From: a virus
Virus record (IMG/VR): IMGVR_UViG_3300032307_000744
Coordinates: 1 to 33,619 of that record
DNA length: 33,619 nt
Reading direction: 5' to 3' (one strand)
The position numbers and the translations under genes are program-made. Below, one piece after another: positions 5,316 through 32,815 of this stretch. The notes below the pieces were generated by a model. It searched no databases and was not told the origin of the DNA. It worked only from the letters and a program-made list of their open reading frames with translations. Within the stretch, counting starts at the first letter, position 1. Each line of letters starts with the position of its first letter.

Positions 5316-5387
5316 TCCTCCTTAGCTCAGCGGCAGAGCAGAGAGCTGTTAACTCTAAGGTCCCTGGTTCGAATCCAGGAGGGGGAG
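5316..5387 (+). tRNA. tRNA-Asn (GTT)
   Basis: The cloverleaf can be folded by eye: acceptor TCCTCCT/AGGGGGA, D arm GCTC/GAGC, anticodon GTT at 5348-5350, and T arm CCTGG TTCGAAT CCAGG. CCA is not encoded. It is the first of four tRNAs in a row. Confidence 0.95.
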
Positions 5388-5438
5388 CTAATGGTGTGGT
5401 CCATACCACTCTCAGGGTAGGAGATAAAAATGGACAAT

Positions 5439-5511
5439 AGCGACTATTGCATAGTGGTAGTGCGTAACCTTGCCAAGGTTAATGTGCGAGTTCGATTCTC
5501 GCTAGTCGCTC
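5439..5511 (+). tRNA. tRNA-Gly (GCC)
   Basis: Acceptor AGCGACT/AGTCGCT, anticodon stem TAACC/GGTTA with anticodon GCC at 5472-5474, and T loop TTCGATT. CCA is not encoded. Confidence 0.94.
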
Positions 5512-5512
5512 T

Positions 5513-5560
5513 GAGGGTATCCTAGCATGACTCATAAGAACCATTTCACTGGATACTCTC
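5513..5560 (+). repeat. Long stem-loop between tRNA-Gly and tRNA-Asp
   Basis: GAGGGTATCC (5513-5522) pairs with GGATACTCTC (5551-5560), ten pairs with one G-U, and a 28-nt loop. It fills almost the entire spacer and may be a processing or spacing structure in a polycistronic tRNA transcript. Confidence 0.6.
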
Positions 5561-5564
5561 TTTA

Positions 5565-5638
5565 GGCTCCATAGCTCAGTTGGTTAGAGCACTACCCTGT
5601 CACGGTAGGGGTCGCCAGTTCAAGTCTGGTTGGAGTCG
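5565..5638 (+). tRNA. tRNA-Asp (GTC)
   Basis: Acceptor GGCTCCA/TGGAGTC, D arm GCTC/GAGC, anticodon GTC at 5599-5601, and T loop TTCAAGT. CCA is not encoded. Confidence 0.95.
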
Positions 5639-5642
5639 CAAG

Positions 5643-5715
5643 GCCTCAATAGCTCATCTGGTAGAGCAACGCACTTGTAATGCGTAGGTGGCGGGTTCAA
5701 GTCCTGCTTGAGGCT
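5643..5715 (+). tRNA. tRNA-Thr (TGT)
   Basis: Acceptor GCCTCAA/TTGAGGC, anticodon TGT at 5676-5678, and T loop TTCAAGT. It is only four bases after tRNA-Asp, so the two are certainly co-transcribed. Confidence 0.95.
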
Positions 5716-5718
5716 CTA

Positions 5719-5753: not shown

Positions 5754-7268
5754 ATGAACAGAGCCTATTTTATTTTTGATTCAAACATTCAAAATAGTAG
5801 AAAAGTATGTGTTGAAAATATTAAAAAAGAAATGTCTCAGCTGCCATTTTTAAACTCTGAAACAATAATGATTTCTTCTAGAGAAGAGTTAGCAAAATCA
5901 CTATCAGATTTTAAGCCTTTAAAGTTTGCATCAGACGTTAGACTTGGTGCAGCTGGATTATTGCTTGGAACAATTAAGTTATATGAAAAAGCAGTTGCTA
6001 ATAATGTGGATCAGCTTATAGTGTTTGAAGATGACTTTATTATTGGTTCTGACTTTTATAAAAATCTATTAAGCATATTAGAAGAGAGAAAAGAATTCGA
6101 CATCATATCTCTATATGCACATTCTAATAGCTTAGAAGACATTGAGCCACTAAAAAATGATAATTTATCAAGCTTAACTATTAAGTATAACAAGTATAAC
6201 ATTGTTCCAAAATTATTTTCATATGTAATATCTACTCAAGGCATGAAAAAGTTTCTTGATTACGCATACTCCTCAACCCTTGATCCAGTAGATATGGTAT
6301 TGCTTTCTACCCCACCATTTAGGATTGATAGTTATGTCATAAACCCAACAGTAATCTCAATGGGATCTATCGATAATGTATTAAATTCTGGACATGCTAT
6401 TGAAGAGCTGTCAAATATTTCTAGAACAGAATATGTTAGACTTGAGGATTGGTACAAAAAGGAAAATTTGACTATGATAGACAAGAGCTTAATCGTAGAG
6501 TCCCAAACTAAAAATGGATATATTGCTTATTACAAGAATGATTTAGCATTTGTAAATCATTTACAGCAAGAAAATGCAATATTTGAAACTGGCATAGTGA
6601 TGAATCATCTTGCTAACATAGTAAAGGCATCAAAGGTAATTATTGATGGCGGTGCCCACGCTGGATCGCATACAACTCTTTATAAAAGTATTAACCCAAA
6701 TGTTGTTGTTCATGCTTTTGAGCCACAGCTAAAAATGTTTGAACTTCTTTCTCACAACGTAAAGCAAAACAATTTTAATAATGTTTTTCTATATAACCTT
6801 GCTCTAGCCAATAAGGCGCTTGCCACTAGAATGGGAACGTCTGTTTCAGATGTTTATTATGACGAAAATCATGAGTATATGAGATTAGAAAATGGGGAGC
6901 TCTACGAGTCTGTTTACACAAACGTTTCTTACGGAGATGACAATATTTTTAATTTGGGTGGCCTTGGGTTTGGAGAAGATGGAGAAGAGGTTAGCACCAT
7001 AACAATAGACAGCCTAAGACTGAATCAGTGCAACTTTATAAAACTAGACCTTGAAGGTGCGGAACCATTGGCTTTGTCTGGTGCTATGGAAACTATCAAA
7101 AAGTTTCATCCTACGATTCTTTTTGAACACAACCACCACCAGTTATCAGATGAGATGTACAAACACTTTGGGGCATCAAAAAAGACATCATTTGAAATAC
7201 TCTCTGAATTGGGATATATTATTACACCAATTGGTGATGACAACTATCTAGCTAAGTATGTTAAATAA
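5754..7268 (+). CDS. Two-domain enzyme: GT25-like glycosyltransferase fused to FkbM methyltransferase
   Basis: A 504-residue fusion. Residues 1-220 resemble family 25 (LPS-type) glycosyltransferases: an N-terminal AYFIFD strand, the central motif IVFEDDFIIG (EDD metal site near residue 92), and YVISTQGMKKFL. Residues 285-500 form an FkbM-type SAM-dependent methyltransferase: IIDGGAHAGSHTTLY (SAM-binding glycine loop), VHAFEPQ, and FIKLDLEGAEPLALSGA with a following ILFEHN. It probably adds and then methylates a sugar on a surface or virion glycan; acceptor unknown. GGAGGG nine bases upstream fixes the start. It is followed 15 bases later by another fused glycosyltransferase. Confidence 0.85.
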   Translation: MNRAYFIFDSNIQNSRKVCVENIKKEMSQLPFLNSETIMISSREELAKSLSDFKPLKFASDVRLGAAGLLLGTIKLYEKAVANNVDQLIVFEDDFIIGSDFYKNLLSILEERKEFDIISLYAHSNSLEDIEPLKNDNLSSLTIKYNKYNIVPKLFSYVISTQGMKKFLDYAYSSTLDPVDMVLLSTPPFRIDSYVINPTVISMGSIDNVLNSGHAIEELSNISRTEYVRLEDWYKKENLTMIDKSLIVESQTKNGYIAYYKNDLAFVNHLQQENAIFETGIVMNHLANIVKASKVIIDGGAHAGSHTTLYKSINPNVVVHAFEPQLKMFELLSHNVKQNNFNNVFLYNLALANKALATRMGTSVSDVYYDENHEYMRLENGELYESVYTNVSYGDDNIFNLGGLGFGEDGEEVSTITIDSLRLNQCNFIKLDLEGAEPLALSGAMETIKKFHPTILFEHNHHQLSDEMYKHFGASKKTSFEILSELGYIITPIGDDNYLAKYVK

Positions 7269-7283
7269 AATAGAAGGAAGAAA

Positions 7284-9110
7284 ATGACAAAAATAATTTT
7301 ACAAACATCAAAGTATAAGCCAGCCACTCCAAAAGGAGATAGCCTAAATACGTTTGCCAAAGGCTGGGATTATGTGCATTTTGATGATGATGAAATTATT
7401 CAATTTTTTAAAGATAATCCAATAGCTGGATTTGAAAATATAGAAAAACGTTTTTATGAAATTCCAAGGGGAGAGTTTAGGGCTGATCTCTTTAGGTATT
7501 ACTACATTTATCTCAATGGTGGATTTTTTATAGACTCAGATTTTGAGTTAAGAGAAAACCTAGATAATGTTATTCAGGACTATGAATTTGTTACGGCAGA
7601 ATTAAAGTCATATGAGCCTGGTGCCTGGGGAAGTACAAATAGGTCAAGGGCATTTAATGGATACATGTATGCTTCTAAACCAAAAAATAAAATAATTTTT
7701 CAATGCTTGCAGCATCTGTACCACATTGATGTAACTGATTTAGGACCATTAGATGGTGGCTGGGATTCAAGGTATCACTCAGTTTGTGAATATTTTTATA
7801 ATGTAATTCAAGCTTACCCAGATAAATCTAAAATTAAGGTTTATAAAATTACAGATAATCATGGATCTTATATTTTAGATGGAAATAAAGTATTGGGGCA
7901 ACACTTTGCATCTGCAAAAGAAAATAAACCATTAAAGCCAAATAGTGAAAGTAATGCTGGAGGTCCAGTTCTTTTCTTCTGCCAAAAAACTATTGAAACA
8001 GCGTATAACTCTGGAATACAGCGTCATGTTAGAGAGATGGCAAAGGGACTATTGCAAAACAATGTACAACTAATTCCAATAAAATTAAATAAAAGAAAAC
8101 AGTTTGAAATTTTATCGGAAGATGAATTAAAAATATTTTCTGAATTTGATGGCCCGCCATTACATAGCTGGACATATAATCGTAATCTCACTCTTAGAGA
8201 ATCTATGAAATATATAAAAAGGGCAAATTATATTATATACCCAGAGCTTCAAAGCAATAAGCTTAAAGAAATTAAAAGCATTTTAATTTGGTCGCAAAGG
8301 TATAATCTAAAGCTGGTTTCTGTTTTTCATGATGCTGTTCCAGCAATTCTTAAAGACTATTATTCATCATCCCATGCTGAAATGTTTTTAGAATATATGA
8401 ATGATTTATCTCAGTCCGACTTTATATTTTCTGTTAGTGAATCGTCTAATAAAGATTACCAACAATTTGTTAATAAGCCTAGGAACACAAAGCTAAAGAG
8501 CATTGCGCTACCTTCTCCACATAATATAGTAAAAAATAATGGCTTTAGTGAAAAAGTTAACAACAGCAAAAACATTGAAGTGTTGTGTGTTTCTTCAATT
8601 ATGGCTAGAAAAAATCATGTTAACTTTTTAAAGGCATATTCTATTGCTCAGAAAAAGTTGCAGGAGCTTGGCTACAAAATAAACCTATCTCTTATTGCAG
8701 CAGAAGTTAACGTTCCAAAAAATTATTTAGAAGAATTTAATCTTTTAGTCAATGAAACTAATGCCAACCTTAGAGTTAATATATCTGAAGAAGATCTTCA
8801 AGAGGCATATAGAAATGCAGACTTTACAATATACCCATCTGTGTATGAGGGGTATGGTCTTCCTATTGTAGAGTCTCTTAATACAAAAACTCCTGTGGCT
8901 TGCTCAAATACATCGTCAATGATAGAGGTGGCACAGCTTGGAGGCTGTATTACTTTTGACCCACACAGTATTGATGATATGGCAAATGCAATTATTTTAT
9001 TGGCTACAGACTCTAAAAAACGAAATAGTTTGGTAAAAGAAATTGAGTCAATAAAAGAATACTCTTGGAAAGATTATACTTCAAGTATTTTAAAGACAAT
9101 TGGCTACTAG
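7284..9110 (+). CDS. Two-domain glycosyltransferase: GT32 fused to GT4
   Basis: A 608-residue protein. Residues 1-210 are GT32-like: IPRGEFRADLFRYYYIYLNGG then the metal-binding DSD of FFIDSDFEL. Residues 225-608 are a GT-B fold, group 1/GT4: VLFFCQKT with a ligand loop at the start, VLCVSSIMARKNHVNFLKA in the middle, and YPSVYEGYGLPIVESL near residue 520, which holds the family's glutamates binding the donor. Two transferases in one chain imply sequential addition of two sugars. GAAGGAAG precedes the ATG. Codons are strongly AT-rich, as in the preceding fusion gene, which suggests the pair travelled together (inference). Confidence 0.88.
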   Translation: MTKIILQTSKYKPATPKGDSLNTFAKGWDYVHFDDDEIIQFFKDNPIAGFENIEKRFYEIPRGEFRADLFRYYYIYLNGGFFIDSDFELRENLDNVIQDYEFVTAELKSYEPGAWGSTNRSRAFNGYMYASKPKNKIIFQCLQHLYHIDVTDLGPLDGGWDSRYHSVCEYFYNVIQAYPDKSKIKVYKITDNHGSYILDGNKVLGQHFASAKENKPLKPNSESNAGGPVLFFCQKTIETAYNSGIQRHVREMAKGLLQNNVQLIPIKLNKRKQFEILSEDELKIFSEFDGPPLHSWTYNRNLTLRESMKYIKRANYIIYPELQSNKLKEIKSILIWSQRYNLKLVSVFHDAVPAILKDYYSSSHAEMFLEYMNDLSQSDFIFSVSESSNKDYQQFVNKPRNTKLKSIALPSPHNIVKNNGFSEKVNNSKNIEVLCVSSIMARKNHVNFLKAYSIAQKKLQELGYKINLSLIAAEVNVPKNYLEEFNLLVNETNANLRVNISEEDLQEAYRNADFTIYPSVYEGYGLPIVESLNTKTPVACSNTSSMIEVAQLGGCITFDPHSIDDMANAIILLATDSKKRNSLVKEIESIKEYSWKDYTSSILKTIGY

Positions 9111-9139: not shown

Positions 9140-9198
9140 TTATATGCCTGCCCAGGAAATGGGAGGTATAAAATAACTCGCTGAAAAGGAGAAATAAC

Positions 9199-16094: not shown

Positions 16095-16742
16095 TTATTT
16101 TAGGTGATCCCTGGGATTTACGTTTTTTGTAGACTCTGACTGTTCTATTTTTTTAGGATCATTTTGATAAAAAAATGGCTTTAAAAAATAAACTTTATGG
16201 TTTTGTAATAGATAGCTGGCAAAAGCTAGGTCTACAGGTCTGACGTCTGTAGTAAAAGATTTTAAGGCCACATCCATTGCTGACAAAGAATATTCTTTAT
16301 CAATATATAATATTGCATGTGTTGTTAAAGTATTAAACACTCTAAAAATTAGCTCATCTGGATTAACTTGATGAAACAATGCTCCAGGATCTTTGTGAGT
16401 ATGTGGATTATCATAGTCTACCCCATACCTAGAAGCTCCAAGATACACTGCCTCAGCATCTTCAGGTATTGTAATTATATAAGACTCATCTTCGTAGTTT
16501 GGAAAAGCGTCATCCTCCATTACAATAAATGGCTTCCTGCTTTCTATTCCTAATTCAATAGCATTGCGGTGTGCTTCAGATAGGCCAATAGAGTGTGGGG
16601 TTGATCTTATTCCTGGAACAATTATTGGATTTAAAAATCCTAATCTAGAACACCATTCATATATTGCATTTCGTCTTTCATGATCCTCTTCTAAATTAAT
16701 TAAATAAATCTGTACTTCTTTTAGGTTAATGGTTTTGTACAT
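16095..16742 (-). CDS. GT25-family (LPS-type) glycosyltransferase
   Basis: A 215-residue protein: VQIYLINLEEDHERRNAIYEW at the start, where INL-ed--RR is the family 25 hallmark, then GLSEAHRNAIELGI, and FIVMEDDAFPN with the EDD metal-binding motif near residue 85. It probably adds galactose or a related sugar to a surface glycan. The frame is open further upstream, but ATG 16742 lies four bases after the stop of the membrane-protein gene and aligns with the family start. AGGATGTAAGG is a weak ribosome site. Confidence 0.85.
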   Translation of the reverse strand: MYKTINLKEVQIYLINLEEDHERRNAIYEWCSRLGFLNPIIVPGIRSTPHSIGLSEAHRNAIELGIESRKPFIVMEDDAFPNYEDESYIITIPEDAEAVYLGASRYGVDYDNPHTHKDPGALFHQVNPDELIFRVFNTLTTHAILYIDKEYSLSAMDVALKSFTTDVRPVDLAFASYLLQNHKVYFLKPFFYQNDPKKIEQSESTKNVNPRDHLK

Positions 16743-16746
16743 AGCC

Positions 16747-17382
16747 TTACATCCTAATAGCTTTGGCGAATACAACCCTAGATGCCATCTTAGATGCACT
16801 AATAATAGCAATAGGAGCAGATATGCTTAGAATAACGCCAGCCCACATTTGAGGGCTTAGCCAGTTAAATTCCCAAAAGTCCAGGGTATGAAAGGCATTA
16901 GCAAGAACTGCAATACCGCCAAATGCAATCATGCCCCATAGTGCTCCACGAGTCTTTTCTGGATTGCCATCTTCATCTATGCGAGATCCAAGAACAAGAT
17001 AGGCAATTAAATAAAGCAAGTACATAAGTTCAATAAAGAAGAAGAATAGTCCAGCCATCCAGTCCTGAGATAATCCTACAAAAAATGCAACAGAGGTAAT
17101 GCCATTAAAAGAAACAATTGCAGAGGAAACAAACGCAATCCCAATACCAATAATCCAAGACCAAAGGACTAGTTTTTGATCAATTTGAACCTTAGGCGCT
17201 CGCTTTGCTTCTTGTTTTTCATACATTAAAGATTTTTTGTCTTTAACGTTTGTCTTAACTATTTGAGTAACAGATTTGGTTCTTTTAGGCTTTTTAGCTG
17301 ACTCAACAGCCTCAATGGCCTCAGATATAACTTTTTCTCTGGTATAGTTTCCAGTGTTTGCGTCATAATTAATGTTTGTCAT
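16747..17382 (-). CDS. Four-helix membrane protein, possibly DUF2637-like
   Basis: A 211-residue protein. The first 68 residues are soluble and basic (SAKKPKRTKSV, KQEAKRAPK). Four membrane segments follow (about 72-92, 104-127, 147-165, 176-194) with a conserved-looking FFFFIELMYLLYLIAYLVLGSR. The shape recalls DUF2637 membrane proteins of actinobacterial plasmids and phages, but I am not sure. A TATAAT lies nine bases before the ATG, so its leader can be at most a few bases long. It forms a two-gene unit with the GT25 gene. Confidence 0.72.
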   Translation of the reverse strand: MTNINYDANTGNYTREKVISEAIEAVESAKKPKRTKSVTQIVKTNVKDKKSLMYEKQEAKRAPKVQIDQKLVLWSWIIGIGIAFVSSAIVSFNGITSVAFFVGLSQDWMAGLFFFFIELMYLLYLIAYLVLGSRIDEDGNPEKTRGALWGMIAFGGIAVLANAFHTLDFWEFNWLSPQMWAGVILSISAPIAIISASKMASRVVFAKAIRM

Positions 17383-18973: not shown

Positions 18974-19267
18974 CTAATACTGATCCCTGTCATGCTCAAT
19001 GCCATGCTTGTCGTCAACATACTTGTGAATCTTTCTGAGCGCTACCGCCTTTGTAACCAAAAATGTTGCCAAAATAAATACAGCATTCCAGAAAAACTCT
19101 GCCACAACATGCTCAAATCCAAAGACTACCTCAAGCAAACCGTCCAGTCCAGAGTGGCTATGGTCTTCATGCACAACTTCTGCAATGGGGTTTGGATCTA
19201 TAACTGTTGAAACAACCTCTACAGTTTCGTGTCCAGTTTCTTCGTGGTCATGTCCATGCTCATCCAT
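18974..19267 (-). CDS. Single-span membrane protein with His/Asp/Glu-rich ends
   Basis: A 97-residue protein whose first 45 residues are rich in His and acids (DEHGHDHEETGHE, HEDHSHSG). A membrane helix follows at about 58-80 (FFWNAVFILATFLVTKAVAL), then a basic and His-containing tail. The clusters could bind metal ions. The ATG overlaps the GroES stop (TAATG), so the two are co-translated. Confidence 0.75.
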   Translation of the reverse strand: MDEHGHDHEETGHETVEVVSTVIDPNPIAEVVHEDHSHSGLDGLLEVVFGFEHVVAEFFWNAVFILATFLVTKAVALRKIHKYVDDKHGIEHDRDQY

Positions 19268-19554
19268 TAAGAAATCACCGCCACAATGTCACGATATGAA
19301 ATAATAATATAATCTTGTCCGTCATGACTAACCTCTGTACCCTGGTATTTAGAAAATACCACCTTGTCTCCAACACTAAGATCTGGAGTTAGTTTTGTGC
19401 CATCTCCAAAGGTTATTCCTGGACCCACAGCAATTACAATTGCCTCTTGTGGTTTTTCCTCTTGCATAGTCTGAATAATCAAACCAGCAGATGACTTCTT
19501 CTCTGTTTCTTTTTCTACCTGTAGGATAATCTTATCCTGTAACGGCTTTAGCAT
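19267..19554 (-). CDS. groES: Co-chaperonin GroES
   Basis: A 95-residue GroES with the full fold: LKPLQDKIILQVEKE at the start, the mobile loop region (SSAGLIIQTMQEEKPQEA, residues 21-38), VIAVGPG, LSVGDKVVFSKYQGTEV, and DYIIISYRDIVAVI at the end. It caps the GroEL chamber; phage versions (such as T4 Gp31) help fold capsid proteins with host GroEL. No GroEL is in the window. The gene starts a co-translated unit with two small genes and tRNA-CAT downstream. Confidence 0.95.
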   Translation of the reverse strand: MLKPLQDKIILQVEKETEKKSSAGLIIQTMQEEKPQEAIVIAVGPGITFGDGTKLTPDLSVGDKVVFSKYQGTEVSHDGQDYIIISYRDIVAVIS

Positions 19555-22662: not shown

Positions 22663-23430
22663 TTAATGAGCTTCTCTAAAAAATCTTCTTTCGAGTCTCC
22701 ACATTAAAGATCCTCTTGTTAGATTATTTTTGTGCTGGCCAAGTCCATCAAACTCCAAAGCAGAGTTAAAGAATGTTAACGATATTGAAGATTTAAGTCT
22801 TTTAAGCATCTTATTTGTATTTTTTGGATTCCAAAGCAGATCATGAGGACTTTCTCCAGTAACTGATAAATCAAGTCCATTTACAACTAAAAATGGCTGG
22901 CCGTATTTTTCTAAAGAAAACTTGTGCACTGCCTCTGTAAGCAGTTTAGGGCCTAAATATATCCAGGTTTCAGGATTAAACTCGCCAGTTTTTGCTTCCA
23001 CTATATTTTGAAGCTTTAATTCTGAAGCAGCCTCATTTAAAAATTTAGATAAATCACTATCAGGTGGCATTTTTAATATTCCTTGGGCATAAAAATTTGG
23101 TTTTTCTTCTATAAAAACATATTCCTTGTCTTCAAAAAAGTATGTTGATAGACATATTGTATCTGCATCTACCCACATTTCCCCAGTTTTAGCAATCATC
23201 TTGTATCTAAAATAATCTGCAAATGATGCTAATTTTCCGTAATGAATAAAGATATCAGACTCTGGAACAATTTCATTAGCGTCTGCCTTTACAACTCCTG
23301 CAGGAACTTTTAAATCCATGTCGTACACATAAAGTTTTATAGAGTGTCCAAAATAAACAAAAGATTTTAGGGCCACCTTGTGCGCACGAGAAAGAGGCTG
23401 CCCAACCCATAAAGAAGATACCTGAGCCAC
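22663..23430 (-). CDS. GT32-like glycosyltransferase (copy 1 of a tandem pair)
   Basis: A 255-residue protein: AQVSSLWVGQPLSRAHKVAL, IKLYVYDMDLKVP, FADYFRYKMIAKTGEMWVDADTICL, where DAD is the metal-binding motif, then FIEEKPNFYAQGILKMP. It resembles capsular polysaccharide synthesis transferases of the GT32/TcdA-TcdB type. It starts at GTG 23430, overlapping the stop of the GT6 gene as TAGTG; this matches the start of its paralogue at 24230-24988. The frame is open to 23460 but that extension is inside the GT6 gene. Confidence 0.8.
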   Translation of the reverse strand: MAQVSSLWVGQPLSRAHKVALKSFVYFGHSIKLYVYDMDLKVPAGVVKADANEIVPESDIFIHYGKLASFADYFRYKMIAKTGEMWVDADTICLSTYFFEDKEYVFIEEKPNFYAQGILKMPPDSDLSKFLNEAASELKLQNIVEAKTGEFNPETWIYLGPKLLTEAVHKFSLEKYGQPFLVVNGLDLSVTGESPHDLLWNPKNTNKMLKRLKSSISLTFFNSALEFDGLGQHKNNLTRGSLMWRLERRFFREAH

Positions 23431-24197
23431 TAGACTACCCTCGAATTTTTGATGTCCCACAAAATATTTTTATCTCTTAATGTTTTTATTTTGGCTAACA
23501 TATCTTGATATTCTTTCTCTGTAAACAAAACTTCTATATGCTTTCCCCAATCGTTTGCCAAAATTCCCTTATCTCCTATAAATGGGAAACTGCTGTTTTC
23601 AAAATCAAATATTTTTTCTGGCGGATTTATAGAAAAATACTTATTAATGTAAGACTCATCTTCTGCGTATGCGGTTATGCCCTTCTTTGCATCTTGCTCA
23701 GAAAGATCAATTGATGTTTTTGTTAGCTCCAAAATGTTTTTCTTACTTCCTCCAAAATAACAGGAATGATAGTAAAATTCTGGGTACTCACTTGGGTTTA
23801 TATACGCAGAAGAAAGTTCATTTTGCTCATAGTGATTTTTAACACCAGTCAAAAAGTGCTTAAGTATAAAGCTTTTGGAAACAAAATCTTCGTCTTTGAA
23901 GTCGTTATAAAGGTTTGAATCTGCATCAACATAAACAAAATAATCATAGTTTTCATTCTCCGCAACCTCTTTTATTACATTAAACTTAAAGAGAACTGTT
24001 TCATACCAGCTTGCTGACGGAACTTTGTGATAAACTATGTTTTTTAAGCCAATATACTCGTGGGGATCCTTGTCAGAAAAAAAATGAAAATATATGTTTG
24101 AGCTCCCCTTATAAAAATGCTTAATTCTATGCATAAGCCTTAGGCCCAATGCAAAATATTTGTTTGTTGCTAAGATTATTATCCCAATACTGCCCAT
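23430..24197 (-). CDS. GT6-family glycosyltransferase (ABO-transferase relative)
   Basis: A 255-residue protein with the GT6 signature: IGIIILATNKYFALG, YFVYVDADSNLYNDF with DAD in place of the animal DVD metal motif, then the acceptor/donor loop YEQNELSSAYINPSEYPEFYYHSCYFGGSKK and a late AEDESYINKYFSINPPEKIFD that matches 'w.DESHLNkYf...KPtK' of the family. GT6 enzymes add GalNAc or Gal in alpha-1,3 linkage, as in blood group A/B antigens; bacterial and phage members are known but rare. Leaderless: TATAAT at 24204-24209, six bases, ATG. Confidence 0.87.
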   Translation of the reverse strand: MGSIGIIILATNKYFALGLRLMHRIKHFYKGSSNIYFHFFSDKDPHEYIGLKNIVYHKVPSASWYETVLFKFNVIKEVAENENYDYFVYVDADSNLYNDFKDEDFVSKSFILKHFLTGVKNHYEQNELSSAYINPSEYPEFYYHSCYFGGSKKNILELTKTSIDLSEQDAKKGITAYAEDESYINKYFSINPPEKIFDFENSSFPFIGDKGILANDWGKHIEVLFTEKEYQDMLAKIKTLRDKNILWDIKNSRVV

Positions 24198-24203
24198 AAA
24201 ACG

Positions 24204-24209
24204 ATTATA
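24204..24209 (-). promoter_or_regulatory. -10 hexamer, leaderless GT6 gene
   Basis: TATAAT on the minus strand, six bases before ATG 24197. Confidence 0.68.
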
Positions 24210-24229
24210 CCATTAAAACTTTTATGCCG

Positions 24230-24988
24230 TTATGCCTTTAAAAACTTTTTTTCAAACTCCCACATCAAAGATCCTTCTGGTATGGTATTTTTATCAAGAT
24301 TATACTGGTCTAAAACAGAATTAAAAAATGTCAGAGACACTGATGAGGGCAGTCTTTTAAGCATCATATCTCTATAATCTGGGTTCCAAAATAAATCATA
24401 TGGCCTTTCAGTAGATAGGTCAAGCCCATTTATTACCAATGCTGGCTGAGCATGTTTTTGAAGAGAAAGCTTACTTACGGCTTTTGTTAATAATGTTGGG
24501 CCAATGTAGCTCCAACTTGCCCAATCAAAATCTTTGTGGAAAACAACGTCTGTTTCTTTTGCATTTTCAAACCTCAGCCTATCTGCCTGCTCATGTAAAA
24601 AGATAGACAATTCACTATCTGATGGCATTTTTAATACGCCACCTGCGTAAACTCCAGAAGCCTCTTCTATAAAAACATACTCTTTATCATCAAAAAAGTA
24701 TTCCGATAAACAAATAGTATCAACATCTGCCCAGACCTCATTTGTTTTTAAGATCATCTCATATCTAAAGTAATCTGAAAATGCCGTTAGCTTTCCATAG
24801 TGAAGAAAAACATCAGCTTCTGGCACAATTTCGTTAGCATCTACTTTTACAATTCCTGGGGGTACCTTTAAGTCCATATCATAAACATAAAGCTTTAACG
24901 AATGACCATAATGTACAAAAGACATCAAAGCTATATGGTGAGCTCTTGAAAGAGGTTTGCCAATCCACAAAGACGATACTTGAGCCAA
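24230..24988 (-). CDS. GT32-like glycosyltransferase (copy 2 of a tandem pair), TTG start
   Basis: A 252-residue paralogue of the protein at 22663-23430; the N-terminus, the LKLYVYDMDLKVP segment, the DVDT metal motif (WADVDTICL) and the C-terminal SSVSLTFFNSVLDQ region all align. The initiator is TTG 24988, in the same place as the GTG of the twin, with AGGAAC upstream and a TATACT about 40 bases upstream. The two copies flank the GT6 gene, which suggests duplication followed by divergence. The substrates may differ. Confidence 0.82.
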   Translation of the reverse strand: MAQVSSLWIGKPLSRAHHIALMSFVHYGHSLKLYVYDMDLKVPPGIVKVDANEIVPEADVFLHYGKLTAFSDYFRYEMILKTNEVWADVDTICLSEYFFDDKEYVFIEEASGVYAGGVLKMPSDSELSIFLHEQADRLRFENAKETDVVFHKDFDWASWSYIGPTLLTKAVSKLSLQKHAQPALVINGLDLSTERPYDLFWNPDYRDMMLKRLPSSVSLTFFNSVLDQYNLDKNTIPEGSLMWEFEKKFLKA

Positions 24989-27174: not shown

Positions 27175-27453
27175 ATGAACATAAAGAAAATAACCAAGAA
27201 AATTGAGAAGTATGGTGTAAAACAATACTTCCTAGGATATAACACAGGGTTTAACGATGGCATCATGGAAAGCTCAGAACCATCCTTTCAAGAAGGATCA
27301 CAGGCTGAGCAAGAACGAATCCAGACTATCCTAGATATGCACATTGAGTGGGCTTTGGAATCTGGTAAGGGTGGAGAGGTAGTAATGTTTAATCGTATCA
27401 AGGAAATGATCACCCCTGTCGTAATACTTGATGACGATGACGACACGTTTTAG
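27175..27453 (+). CDS. Protein of unknown function, leaderless and probably repressor-controlled
   Basis: A 92-residue protein: basic helix (NIKKITKKIEKYGVKQYF), GYNTGFNDGIMESS, a helical segment, and an acidic end VILDDDDDTF. The Y-x-x-G-F-N-x-G pattern is typical of small phage proteins of unknown function. Its promoter is a perfect consensus overlapped by a palindrome. The last four bases overlap the convergent HAD gene. Confidence 0.75.
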   Translation: MNIKKITKKIEKYGVKQYFLGYNTGFNDGIMESSEPSFQEGSQAEQERIQTILDMHIEWALESGKGGEVVMFNRIKEMITPVVILDDDDDTF

Positions 27454-27800
27454 TTTTCCAGGGTATCCAAATCTAAAGGACTAATAGCCACTATACCAAC
27501 TGACCTATATAAGGATAATACCTTAGGGTTGTTATCAATTGCTAAGGTCAAATTAGGTATGGTTTGAGCCATAGCCAATTTAAACTGATAGTCCTTGTTG
27601 TCATCAACAGGGTTTAGAATAATCTCCACATAGTTCAAACCAAATCTTTTAAGAAGCGCCTTATATCTTTTTCTCAAAGATTCATGAGATCCAGATATGA
27701 AGTATATATCCTCAGATAGGGTTTTAAGATAGTCTATTGTGGTTTGGATAGGTTTGCCTTCAGAAGCAACTGTCCCATTAATATCAACAAGAATGGCCAT
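27450..27800 (-). CDS. HAD-like protein with altered motif I
   Basis: A 116-residue small HAD-fold protein: motif I is LVDINGTV (D6-x-N8-GT, where most phosphatases have D-x-D), motif II is FISGS (Ser after the second strand), and motif IV is LAIDNNPKV. Related short HAD proteins in phages process nucleotide or polynucleotide phosphates. The Asn in place of the second Asp may weaken phosphatase chemistry, so the activity may be different or lost. TACAAT (27806-27811) is five bases before the ATG, so it is also nearly leaderless. Confidence 0.78.
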   Translation of the reverse strand: MAILVDINGTVASEGKPIQTTIDYLKTLSEDIYFISGSHESLRKRYKALLKRFGLNYVEIILNPVDDNKDYQFKLAMAQTIPNLTLAIDNNPKVLSLYRSVGIVAISPLDLDTLEN

Positions 27801-27960
27801 AGTCTATTGTAGCAAATTTCCAGGGTATCAGGCAAAGCCTTCGTAATCCCTAGTATAAGACATAACCCCTAGTAATAACAAACCATTGTTTTTGGGATAG
27901 CCCCATAGCCCCATATCCCCAAATAACCCCACATCAAGATACTTCTGATACCCCGCAAAA

Positions 27961-28021
27961 TTATCCACAGGGTTTGATAGTTATCCACAGATATAAGGGT
28001 TTATACACAGGTTTATCCACA
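27961..28021 (+). repeat. Four DnaA-box-like repeats
   Basis: TTATCCACA at 27961, 27981 and 28013 and TTATACACA at 28001. The first three start exactly 20 bp apart, about two helix turns. TTATCCACA is the consensus box recognised by bacterial DnaA. Confidence 0.75.
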
Positions 28022-28360
28022 TATAGATCTTACTGAATAATTTTAGTTATGGAGTAGAAGTGGTTTGAAATGGATGATAGTGGAGAATGGAACCCTTCCG
28101 TACTTAGGGCCGTAATCCCATCTTACCATACCAAACCCCATTTGTCAATAGTGAAAACCTAAATTCTTATATCAAACCCCATTTTCTAGCTTTCCTACAA
28201 ACCCCAATAGCCCCAATATGATGTCAAACCCCATATAAAAACATAGGGGTTTTTGATCAAAACTGGATATAAATTTATATAAACTATGGGGTTTTATATC
28301 AGAACATAGGGGTTATTTGTTATTATTTATACTAGGGGATTTTGGTATCATTTCGTAATA

Positions 28361-28405
28361 CCCTGGCCCTTTGGGCCTGCGGCTGCGCCGCCAAAAATTC
28401 CAGGG
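28361..28405. repeat. GC-rich branched hairpin element
   Basis: CCCTGG (28361-28366) pairs with CCAGGG (28400-28405), enclosing CCC-TTT-GGG (28367-28375) and GCGGC-TGC-GCCGC (28379-28391). The result would be a cruciform or three-way junction in otherwise AT-rich DNA. Confidence 0.55.
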
Positions 28406-28460
28406 GATCTATTCAAACCATGATAATAACAAACCCCTATAGTACTATATACCTCAAAAA

Positions 28461-28604
28461 CGTTCAGTGATTTTTTTGAAGTCGTTCGTAATGTCTTTTT
28501 TGAAATGTATTTGTATAAAGGGGTTTGATAGATATAGGGGTTTGGACAAATACCCCAAAACTTCCAGCGATTTTTTGAAAAGCCTTCTTAATGTCTATTG
28601 ACAA
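28461..28604. repeat. Two diverged ~42-bp repeats, third copy at 31689-31730
   Basis: 28461-28504 and 28561-28604 align (GATTTTTT-GAA, TTCTTAATGTCT). A third copy lies at 31689-31730 before the 129-residue protein gene, and a weak fourth near 32890-32935. Confidence 0.45.
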
Positions 28605-28626
28605 AATTAGAATGGTTTGGTATAAT
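28598..28626 (+). promoter_or_regulatory. Perfect consensus promoter with no plus-strand gene
   Basis: TTGACA (28598-28603), 17 bp, TATAAT (28621-28626). The transcript would start near 28633 with a foldable GGTGGTC...GACCAGCC sequence, then run antisense to the gene at 28681-28944. It may make a small RNA or a replication primer. Confidence 0.7.
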
Positions 28627-28632
28627 GCGAGG

Positions 28633-28647
28633 GTGGTCGGCCCCAAA
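28633..28647. repeat. GTGGTCGGCCC repeat (three copies)
   Basis: GTGGTCGGCCC(C)AAA at 28633-28647, 31751-31766 and 32942-32955. Two copies lie between a minus-strand stop and the next promoter. The flanks of copies two and three also align. Confidence 0.65.
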
Positions 28648-28680
28648 GCGATCCCCGTTAAGGGACCAGCCTTGTTACTG

Positions 28681-28944
28681 CTACGCTTTGACTCCTAGAA
28701 GGTCGTCCATATTCTCAAACCCAGTATCTTCAACTTCCATAGCTGCTAGTAGCAAATCAAATGTTTCCTCAACAAATGTTTTTGCGGCAGGTGTGGACTT
28801 TACAATGTTGCTCGCAATAAGATAAGCAAGTGGCAAACCTAAGTCATTGTATTCTACGAAATCCTGAAACTCTTCGTCTGCTCTATAGTTTAGCCATAGG
28901 TCAGCGAGTATCTCACATTTGTTAGTATAGCTTGTTGAATTCAT
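28681..28944 (-). CDS. Acidic protein of unknown function
   Basis: An 87-residue acidic, helical protein (ILADLWLNYRADEEFQDFVEY, YNDLGLPLAYLI, then VEETFDLLLAAMEVED). The style is typical of small early proteins in actinobacterial phages, with a 'W-x-Y ... F-D-L-x-L-A' pattern, but I have no named family. GAGGG seven bases upstream supports the ATG. It overlaps the preceding gene by 23 bases and is the last gene of the minus-strand run before the candidate origin. Confidence 0.72.
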   Translation of the reverse strand: MNSTSYTNKCEILADLWLNYRADEEFQDFVEYNDLGLPLAYLIASNIVKSTPAAKTFVEETFDLLLAAMEVEDTGFENMDDLLGVKA

Positions 28945-31804: not shown

Positions 31805-32815
31805 TTATGCTGTTGCCAACTGAACAGCCTTGAAGATTCTGTTCTTCTCAGCATTGGTCATTGGGTCAAACCCAGAAGCAGAAGCAAGAATAGATTCTGT
31901 CTTGCCCTTGCGACCTGAACGATACCAGTCTAGTCTTTCAGTTAGAGCGTTAGCAACACCCCAAGCTGTGCCAGTAATTGTATTGTTGTAATCGCCAACG
32001 TAGATGTCATTGATTAGGTCAATCTTATTTTCCCAACGACTGTTAGCACCCTTAGCCTCATCTTTTGGCTTTGGGTAGAGAGCAAGAACGATTTCGTCAA
32101 ACTTCTTTTTGCTAACTTCTTTTTGAATCATCTCGTTAGCCATTTTGCTAAACTCATCAATGTAAGCGTTAGCAAGACCAAGAGCCTCTCTAGCAACCTG
32201 AACCTTACCGCTTGCTGTCTGTGTGTGTCTAATCTTGAAAGACTGCTTGACAGAACCATTTCTGCCACGCTGTCCAAGAGCAAGGTTTAGAGTGTTAGCA
32301 CATACAACACGAACAGGTGTGATACTTGCCTGAATAGCGATAGACCCGTCGTGAGATGTGTTGACAAGAAGATAAGTGTTTACCTTATCTGATACACCAT
32401 TTGGGTCAATGACAGTTTCACGCTCAAGAGCAAGGGCACCAAATACAACACGCCCACCCTTGATTGAACCAGCAGTTTCCCAACGTCCGCCATTGTCTAG
32501 CAGGTTGTCAGCAAAATCAAATAGCTCCTCGTTTTGAAGAGGAACATAACGCTCACCAACAACACCAAGAACATCCTTGTTGCCTAGAATGAATGGGTTA
32601 TCACGAATCACAAAAGAATAATTCTTGTCTGATTCAAATTGGTTAGGAATCTCAACGTCCTCTAGCCTAACGTTCCAATTGTTTAGCTTAGCTTTCTTTA
32701 GCATTTCAGCTGTTGACACTTCCTCCTGGAATACTGTGCCCAAACCATGCCAAGCTGGTTCACGCAAGGAAGCAAAAGCGGTTTCTCCGTTTACTGTTTC
32801 TAGCAAATGTGCCAT
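31805..32815 (-). CDS. DUF932 phage/plasmid-like protein
   Basis: A 336-residue protein of the DUF932 family (phage/plasmid-like TIGR03299): ASLREPAWHGLGTVFQEEVSTAEML at the start, FVIRDNPFILGNKDVLGVVGERYVPLQNEELFDF, then VNTYLLVNTSHDGSIAIQASITPVRVVCANTLNLAL in the middle and a helical C-terminal half. The biochemical role is not settled; it is frequent in phages and mobile elements near replication or defence genes. GAAAGG upstream of ATG 32815. The promoter carries the shared 14-bp box. Confidence 0.9.
   Translation of the reverse strand: MAHLLETVNGETAFASLREPAWHGLGTVFQEEVSTAEMLKKAKLNNWNVRLEDVEIPNQFESDKNYSFVIRDNPFILGNKDVLGVVGERYVPLQNEELFDFADNLLDNGGRWETAGSIKGGRVVFGALALERETVIDPNGVSDKVNTYLLVNTSHDGSIAIQASITPVRVVCANTLNLALGQRGRNGSVKQSFKIRHTQTASGKVQVAREALGLANAYIDEFSKMANEMIQKEVSKKKFDEIVLALYPKPKDEAKGANSRWENKIDLINDIYVGDYNNTITGTAWGVANALTERLDWYRSGRKGKTESILASASGFDPMTNAEKNRIFKAVQLATA

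Follow-up and report, generated by a model that had tools for sequence, protein, structure and literature searches.

How a virulent phage that brings its own replication fork proteins, but no visible initiator, begins to copy its genome is the question raised by a gene-free region in an uncultivated viral DNA of 33,619 bp (IMG/VR record IMGVR_UViG_3300032307_000744), hereafter called the window. This region, termed site A, carries a row of host-type DnaA boxes. The original prediction took it for a candidate phage origin, at which host DnaA is either recruited or sequestered to shut down host replication. Judging from the sequence, host DnaA very probably binds site A. The reading that site A is a phage replication origin, or part of one, is given a probability of about 0.55.

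The window is a fragment of a phage of about 115 kb, akin to the virulent Streptomyces phages of the family Stanwilliamsviridae; phages of the BE cluster are considered virulent (PMC10690885). A megablast search of the window against cultured phages gave no match. Relatives were located through the DUF932 protein, which led to 23 close viral loci, and its best cultured matches are all Stanwilliamsviridae Streptomyces phages such as Jay2Jay and Bmoc (53–55%). Core genes and the gene order around site A are common to the window and this family, and a module of helicase, primase, Pol III and RecA is common to the aquatic group and Stanwilliamsviridae. Related records give genome sizes of approximately 116 kb (G003) and 112 kb (G009). 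The G003 contig of 124,540 bp has an exact terminal redundancy of 8,517 bp (L124/L125) and a unit of 116,023 bp; this redundancy reflects a genuine long terminal repeat or, alternatively, an overlap left by the assembly. The window contains a WhiB gene, and its ribonucleotide reductase has its best cellular matches (80–85%) in planktonic Microbacteriaceae of the Aquiluna/Rhodoluna type. These two genes point indirectly to Aquiluna/Rhodoluna as candidate hosts. Additionally, several glycosyltransferase-like and methyltransferase-like genes were recognised by reading (5754-9110, 16095-16811 and 22663-24988; one tried in Pfam gave no match), and they include two similar gene copies at 22663-23460 and 24230-24988.

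Site A is the longest stretch of the window (880 bp) without a convincing open reading frame, as had been predicted. One of its neighbours is an HAD/PNKP phosphatase-like gene, whose short product is approximately the size of the phosphatase half alone. The four boxes of the array follow each other in start-to-start steps of 20, 20 and 12 bp, which confirms the predicted array with its first three boxes at 20-bp intervals (Table 1). All three exact copies of TTATCCACA in the window lie in the array, as do all four copies of TTATNCACA in the 33,619-bp record, and even three TTATNCACA within 61 bp were reached in 0 of 2000 dinucleotide shuffles. Across the window as a whole, one-mismatch boxes number 12 against 11.2 expected, which is not above chance. 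Only the clustering and the exactness of the boxes are above chance in the window.

Table 1. Coordinates of site A, its elements and related features (window positions unless a genome is named).
Feature	Position	Strand	Remark
Gene-free region with the whole element (site A)	27801..28680	.	no convincing ORF
DnaA box 1, TTATCCACA	27961..27969	+
DnaA box 2, TTATCCACA	27981..27989	+
DnaA box 3, TTATACACA	28001..28009	+	position-5 variant
DnaA box 4, TTATCCACA	28013..28021	+
Low-stability DNA adjoining array	28022..28060	.	candidate unwinding element
ATCTTACTGA, motif adjoining last box	28027..28036	+	ATCTTACT(G/A) in 16/16 relatives
TCGTAAT repeat, copy 1	27841..27847	+
TCGTAAT repeat, copy 2	28353..28359	+
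TCGTAAT repeat, copy 3	28486..28492	+
TCTTAAT variant, copy 4	28586..28592	+
TCGTAA(A/T) sites across the group	window 28353, 28486, 28586; Jay2Jay 122729, 122765; Gilson 120417, 120462, 97107, 99426, 102412
Dispersed CAAACCCC / GGGGTTTG repeats	27864..28548	.	both strands
Branched hairpin	28361..28405	+	outer stem CCCT/AGGG and two inner hairpins
Sigma-70 promoter TTGACA-17-TATAAT	28598..28626	+	TG before -10; 12/12 match
HAD/PNKP phosphatase-like flanking gene	27450..27800	-	PHROG 415/505
Small conserved gene flanking site A	28681..28944	-	last of leftward operon; orthologues adjoin array in relatives
DUF932 protein	31805..32815	-	Pfam PF06067, PHROG 1221
GroES (Cpn10), phage-encoded	19267-19554	-
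tRNA cluster, n=4 (Asn, Gly, Asp, Thr)	5316-5716
tRNA-Met, apart from cluster	18750-18824
Gene-free counterpart of site A	Gilson 120292-122052; Faust 123176-124709
Site B clusters	G003:C1:112206-112337; G009:C1:111085-111105; G016:C1:8109-8129, 9165-9185; G015:C1:15337-15445

The array is not peculiar to this fragment. Of the 19 aquatic loci covering the corresponding place, 16 have it there, next to the orthologue of the gene at 28681. The boxes are conserved in relatives, as the original prediction required, with helical phasing and a degeneracy of the DnaA type. Three loci (L139, L140 and L141) are without an array at the site-A place, and in L141 a cluster of three boxes occurs at the opposite side of the operon. 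A second cluster of DnaA boxes, called site B, is found in several aquatic relatives close to where the DUF932 operon begins; the DNA there is gene-free, immediately precedes small early genes and has repeated promoter-like units of GGCGTGTCGATTTGACA nearby. Site B was not present in the whole-record maps of cultured Streptomyces phages.

Among ten cultured Stanwilliamsviridae genomes, nine (Jay2Jay, Samisti12, NootNoot, Peebs, Anedea, Braelyn, LukeCage, Gilson and Faust) have a single box cluster in the corresponding region. The tenth is Bmoc, in which box 2 is split by a 19-bp insertion with a short inverted repeat (NC_055842.1 near 121730-121760, L294). Whole-record maps of four outgroup actinophages (Weasels2, Magritte, Mufasa8 and Zemanar) contain no box cluster. 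The sole cluster of Jay2Jay (133.5 kb) consists of TTATCCACA at 122001 (+), TTATCCACA at 122023 (-) and TTATACACA at 122036 (-), on the same side of the DUF932 operon as the array of the window, and a blastn search with the Jay2Jay element matched 43 records of Streptomyces phages. The cluster of Gilson and Faust occupies a gene-free stretch 1.5–1.8 kb long, located 6–7 kb before the right end, with the DUF932 gene further left. In Boydwoodruffvirinae phages, the array is inverted with respect to the operon. When eight Streptomyces phages were aligned, box 1 was invariant, box 2 was intact in seven and the spacer was variable. The full array is thus not indispensable, since L139, L140 and L141 lack it at this place and box 2 of Bmoc is split.

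The manner in which the boxes vary and are spaced is characteristic of DnaA sites. The arrays of 16 phages hold 26 exact boxes, and 25 of their 35 boxes with one mismatch deviate at position 5; in the remainder of G003 and G009 (228 kb outside sites A and B), there are two exact TTATCCACA and position 5 accounts for 4 of 88 one-mismatch boxes. DnaA is known to tolerate changes at position 5, where C is better than A or G and T is weakest (PMC5835720). Moreover, distances between box pairs fall at multiples of about 10.5 bp, with a vector strength of 0.81 in the same 16 phages; as these phages are related, neither the position-5 nor the spacing counts represent independent events. In oriC, the spacing can change by full helical turns but not by part of a turn (PMC4285127).

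The four boxes also agree with the consensus of the candidate hosts. Aquiluna and Rhodoluna use TTATCCACA/TTATACACA, and the same sequences occur in the dnaA-dnaN spacer and in other clusters of these bacteria. For instance, Aquiluna IMCC13023 has five TTATCCACA between rplI-like and dnaB-like genes (gene names read from translations), and its dnaA-dnaN spacer reads TTATACACAGGTTTATACACAGATCT where the window reads TTATACACAGGTTTATCCACATATAGATCT. Streptomyces DnaA prefers TTGTCCACA (PMC4285127). Despite this host consensus, the arrays of the Streptomyces phages Jay2Jay, Samisti12, Gilson and Faust carry TTATCCACA, and no clusters of the actinobacterial consensus TTGTCCACA were found in the Streptomyces phages.

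Other elements of site A accompany the boxes. The motif ATCTTACT(G/A) flanks the last box of every one of the 16 aquatic phages and appears once per region. A candidate homologue of ATCTTACTGA in Jay2Jay, ATCTTAGG, was dropped because other Streptomyces phages have not kept it, and a DnaA-trio pattern adjoining the last box was not convincing by eye. The predicted AT-richness proved weak, as the GC content of 0.37–0.39 is similar to that of the rest of the window, but conserved local stability minima do exist. Averaged over 16 genomes, they are located at the last box with the ATCTTACT motif and approximately 225 bp beyond; the former is at about the 95th percentile of the least stable 50-bp windows of G003. 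The predicted AACCCC/GGGGTT repeats are indeed concentrated in site A, which holds 12 of the 19 copies in the window. A wider CAAACC(C/A) repeat occurs 16 times against 1.3 expected per 1.5 kb, and in relatives the core of the repeat is mostly CAAACCAT/CAAACCAC in place of the form found in the window.

A further repeat, TCGTAA(A/T), is kept across the whole group and clusters at the array, often with a TTTT-rich half some 10–20 bp upstream. The 1.5 kb richest in this repeat coincide with the array in G003, G009 and Jay2Jay, and adjoin the array in Gilson and Faust. It was rejected as a plain promoter, there being no consistent gene downstream. The branched hairpin of the original prediction exists and is common to six phages, in which it is 100% paired with one compensatory pair, but its stability is no better than that of shuffled sequences (z -0.85). 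The identical sigma-70 promoter, matching at all 12 positions, is kept in L122 and L123; in the window it reads towards, or against, the end of the leftward early operon.

The replication genes of these phages cover the fork. A DnaB-type helicase is encoded in all ten near-complete phage genomes searched, and G003 also has genes for DNA polymerase III alpha, for a DnaG-type primase and for RecA, as does Jay2Jay according to its annotation. The ten near-complete genomes contain neither the DnaA ATPase domain (PF00308) nor DciA; no IstB/DnaC-type loader scored above the cut-off in them, and the weak matches fall inside the helicase itself. A phage-encoded DnaA domain IV (PF08299) was rejected as the reader of the boxes, since none is present in 23 uncultivated and 14 cultured records. 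The known steps that are missing are initiation and helicase loading, which DnaA supplies; a phage initiator or loader that escapes recognition could also do so. The literature searched contained no description of how replication begins in Stanwilliamsviridae phages.

Several explanations compete for these observations. Host DnaA on the array might act as a transcription factor that represses or activates phage promoters and couples early transcription to the DnaA level, and precedents for DnaA as a regulator are reviewed in PMC8203912. The perfect sigma-70 promoter at 28598 and the position of site B upstream of small early genes in several aquatic relatives speak for such a role, and at site B itself DnaA may indeed be a regulator. 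It is an unlikely function for the array as a whole, because the leftward operon has site A at its 3' end and not at its promoter, some 580 bp separate the boxes from the strong promoter in a geometry that is not conserved, and cultured relatives retain only the site-A cluster. Titration is rather unlikely too. Here the array would titrate DnaA or alter its nucleotide state in the manner of datA/DARS, and host initiation would stop as phage copies accumulate. A genome that is present in many copies and carries high-affinity boxes must necessarily bind DnaA. With only some 200 DnaA per origin in E. coli and about 8 bound by the mioC region (PMC5835720), several tens of phage genomes could exhaust the supply. 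Also in its favour, the ColE1 origin contains a DARS of three boxes and 70 bp (PMC5835720). However, titration needs no helical phasing, no fixed single position and no conserved neighbour motif; scattered boxes would suffice, yet these are absent elsewhere, as the two exact copies in 228 kb indicate. The sequestration put forward by the original prediction leaves the single fixed site, the phasing and the flanking motif unexplained, and titration would more probably be a by-product of the array than its aim.

That a phage protein reads the site, or that the site serves packaging at the terminal repeat, with the likeness to DnaA boxes being secondary, is improbable. In favour of this reading, the Jay2Jay array is situated 50–90 bp from the start of an 11.4-kb terminal repeat, and the second conserved repeat, TCGTAA(A/T), clusters with the array. 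A link between the array and the terminal-repeat boundary was rejected because Gilson and Faust break it: their repeats measure only 766 and 772 bp, and the array is 6–7 kb away. The position-5 degeneracy and the boxes shared with the host point to DnaA. Chance, or chromosomal DNA captured through an assembly artefact, might be suspected in an uncultivated contig whose one-mismatch boxes are at chance level over the whole window. It is practically dismissed by the shuffles, by the lack of a DnaA or DnaN gene nearby and, above all, by conservation across a viral family that includes cultured genomes with defined ends.

Owing to conservation in relatives, helical phasing and DnaA-type degeneracy, recruitment of host DnaA to an origin is the best reading of site A, as originally proposed, although the GC skew lends it no support. 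Gilson and Faust show no skew flip at the array, and their genes there run the same way on both sides. The flip seen at the Jay2Jay array was rejected as origin evidence because gene direction flips there. A further point against an origin comes from P1 oriL, where mutation of two DnaA sites left the RepL-driven amplification unchanged in a reporter test (PMC9948254). If site A is an origin, host DnaA would occupy the helically phased boxes as an oligomer, a step for which the sequence argues well. The oligomer would then open or destabilise the low-stability DNA adjoining the ATCTTACT motif. Subsequently, the DnaB-type helicase, DnaG-type primase and DNA polymerase III alpha of the phage would be loaded and take over.

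Similar arrays are found far beyond this group. Three exact TTATCCACA with gaps of 2–30 bp are present in at least 120 viral stretches (L002-L121), a count that may include prophages or plasmid-like elements and does not give the share of all viruses. No DnaA or DnaN genes were found among the listed stretches, and only a few of them share genes with this phage group. The claim that phages rarely carry clusters of DnaA boxes is therefore too strong: viral DnaA-box arrays are real and not confined to this group. A broader picture, for which the odds fall slightly short of even, is that of a virulent actinophage family that has its own DnaB-type helicase, primase and Pol III alpha, lacks an initiator of its own and uses host DnaA to start replication from a conserved mimic of oriC; the like arrays of many unrelated uncultivated viruses would then reflect a common viral strategy. 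The conserved DnaA array offers an exact and testable place for the start of Stanwilliamsviridae replication. If the reading is true, the replication of a virulent phage would be tied to the cell-cycle initiator of its host, which would help to explain how a phage with fork proteins and no visible initiator begins replication. Furthermore, helically phased TTATNCACA in gene-free DNA may provide a simple signature for finding origins in uncultivated viruses.

Among known systems, datA and DARS of E. coli resemble site A as small clusters of DnaA boxes away from oriC that act on DnaA. The origins of P1 (oriR), mini-F and pSC101 have host DnaA boxes beside a repeat array on a mobile replicon. Site A likewise has its boxes beside repeats, and differs in that the phages concerned here are considered virulent (PMC10690885). 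P1 oriL is also a lytic origin region of a phage, with two DnaA sites by AT-rich DNA; it uses RepL, and its sites are located within repL, whereas the boxes of site A occupy gene-free DNA (PMC9948254). For the lytic Pseudomonas phage vB_PseuGesM_254, DnaA boxes were predicted by Ori-Finder in an AT-rich stretch, a prediction for a single genome (PMC11512268). Bacterial oriC differs from site A in several respects: site A has only three to four boxes and no dnaA or dnaN beside them, is part of the genome of a lytic phage that encodes a helicase, a primase and a polymerase itself, and possesses extra TCGTAA(A/T) and CAAACC repeats and a branched hairpin. Nevertheless, the dnaA-dnaN spacer of Aquiluna and other Microbacteriaceae shares with site A the boxes TTATCCACA/TTATACACA, their spacing of 10–12 bp and multiple turns, the gene-free setting and the adjoining DNA of low stability, and the string in the Aquiluna spacer is nearly the same.
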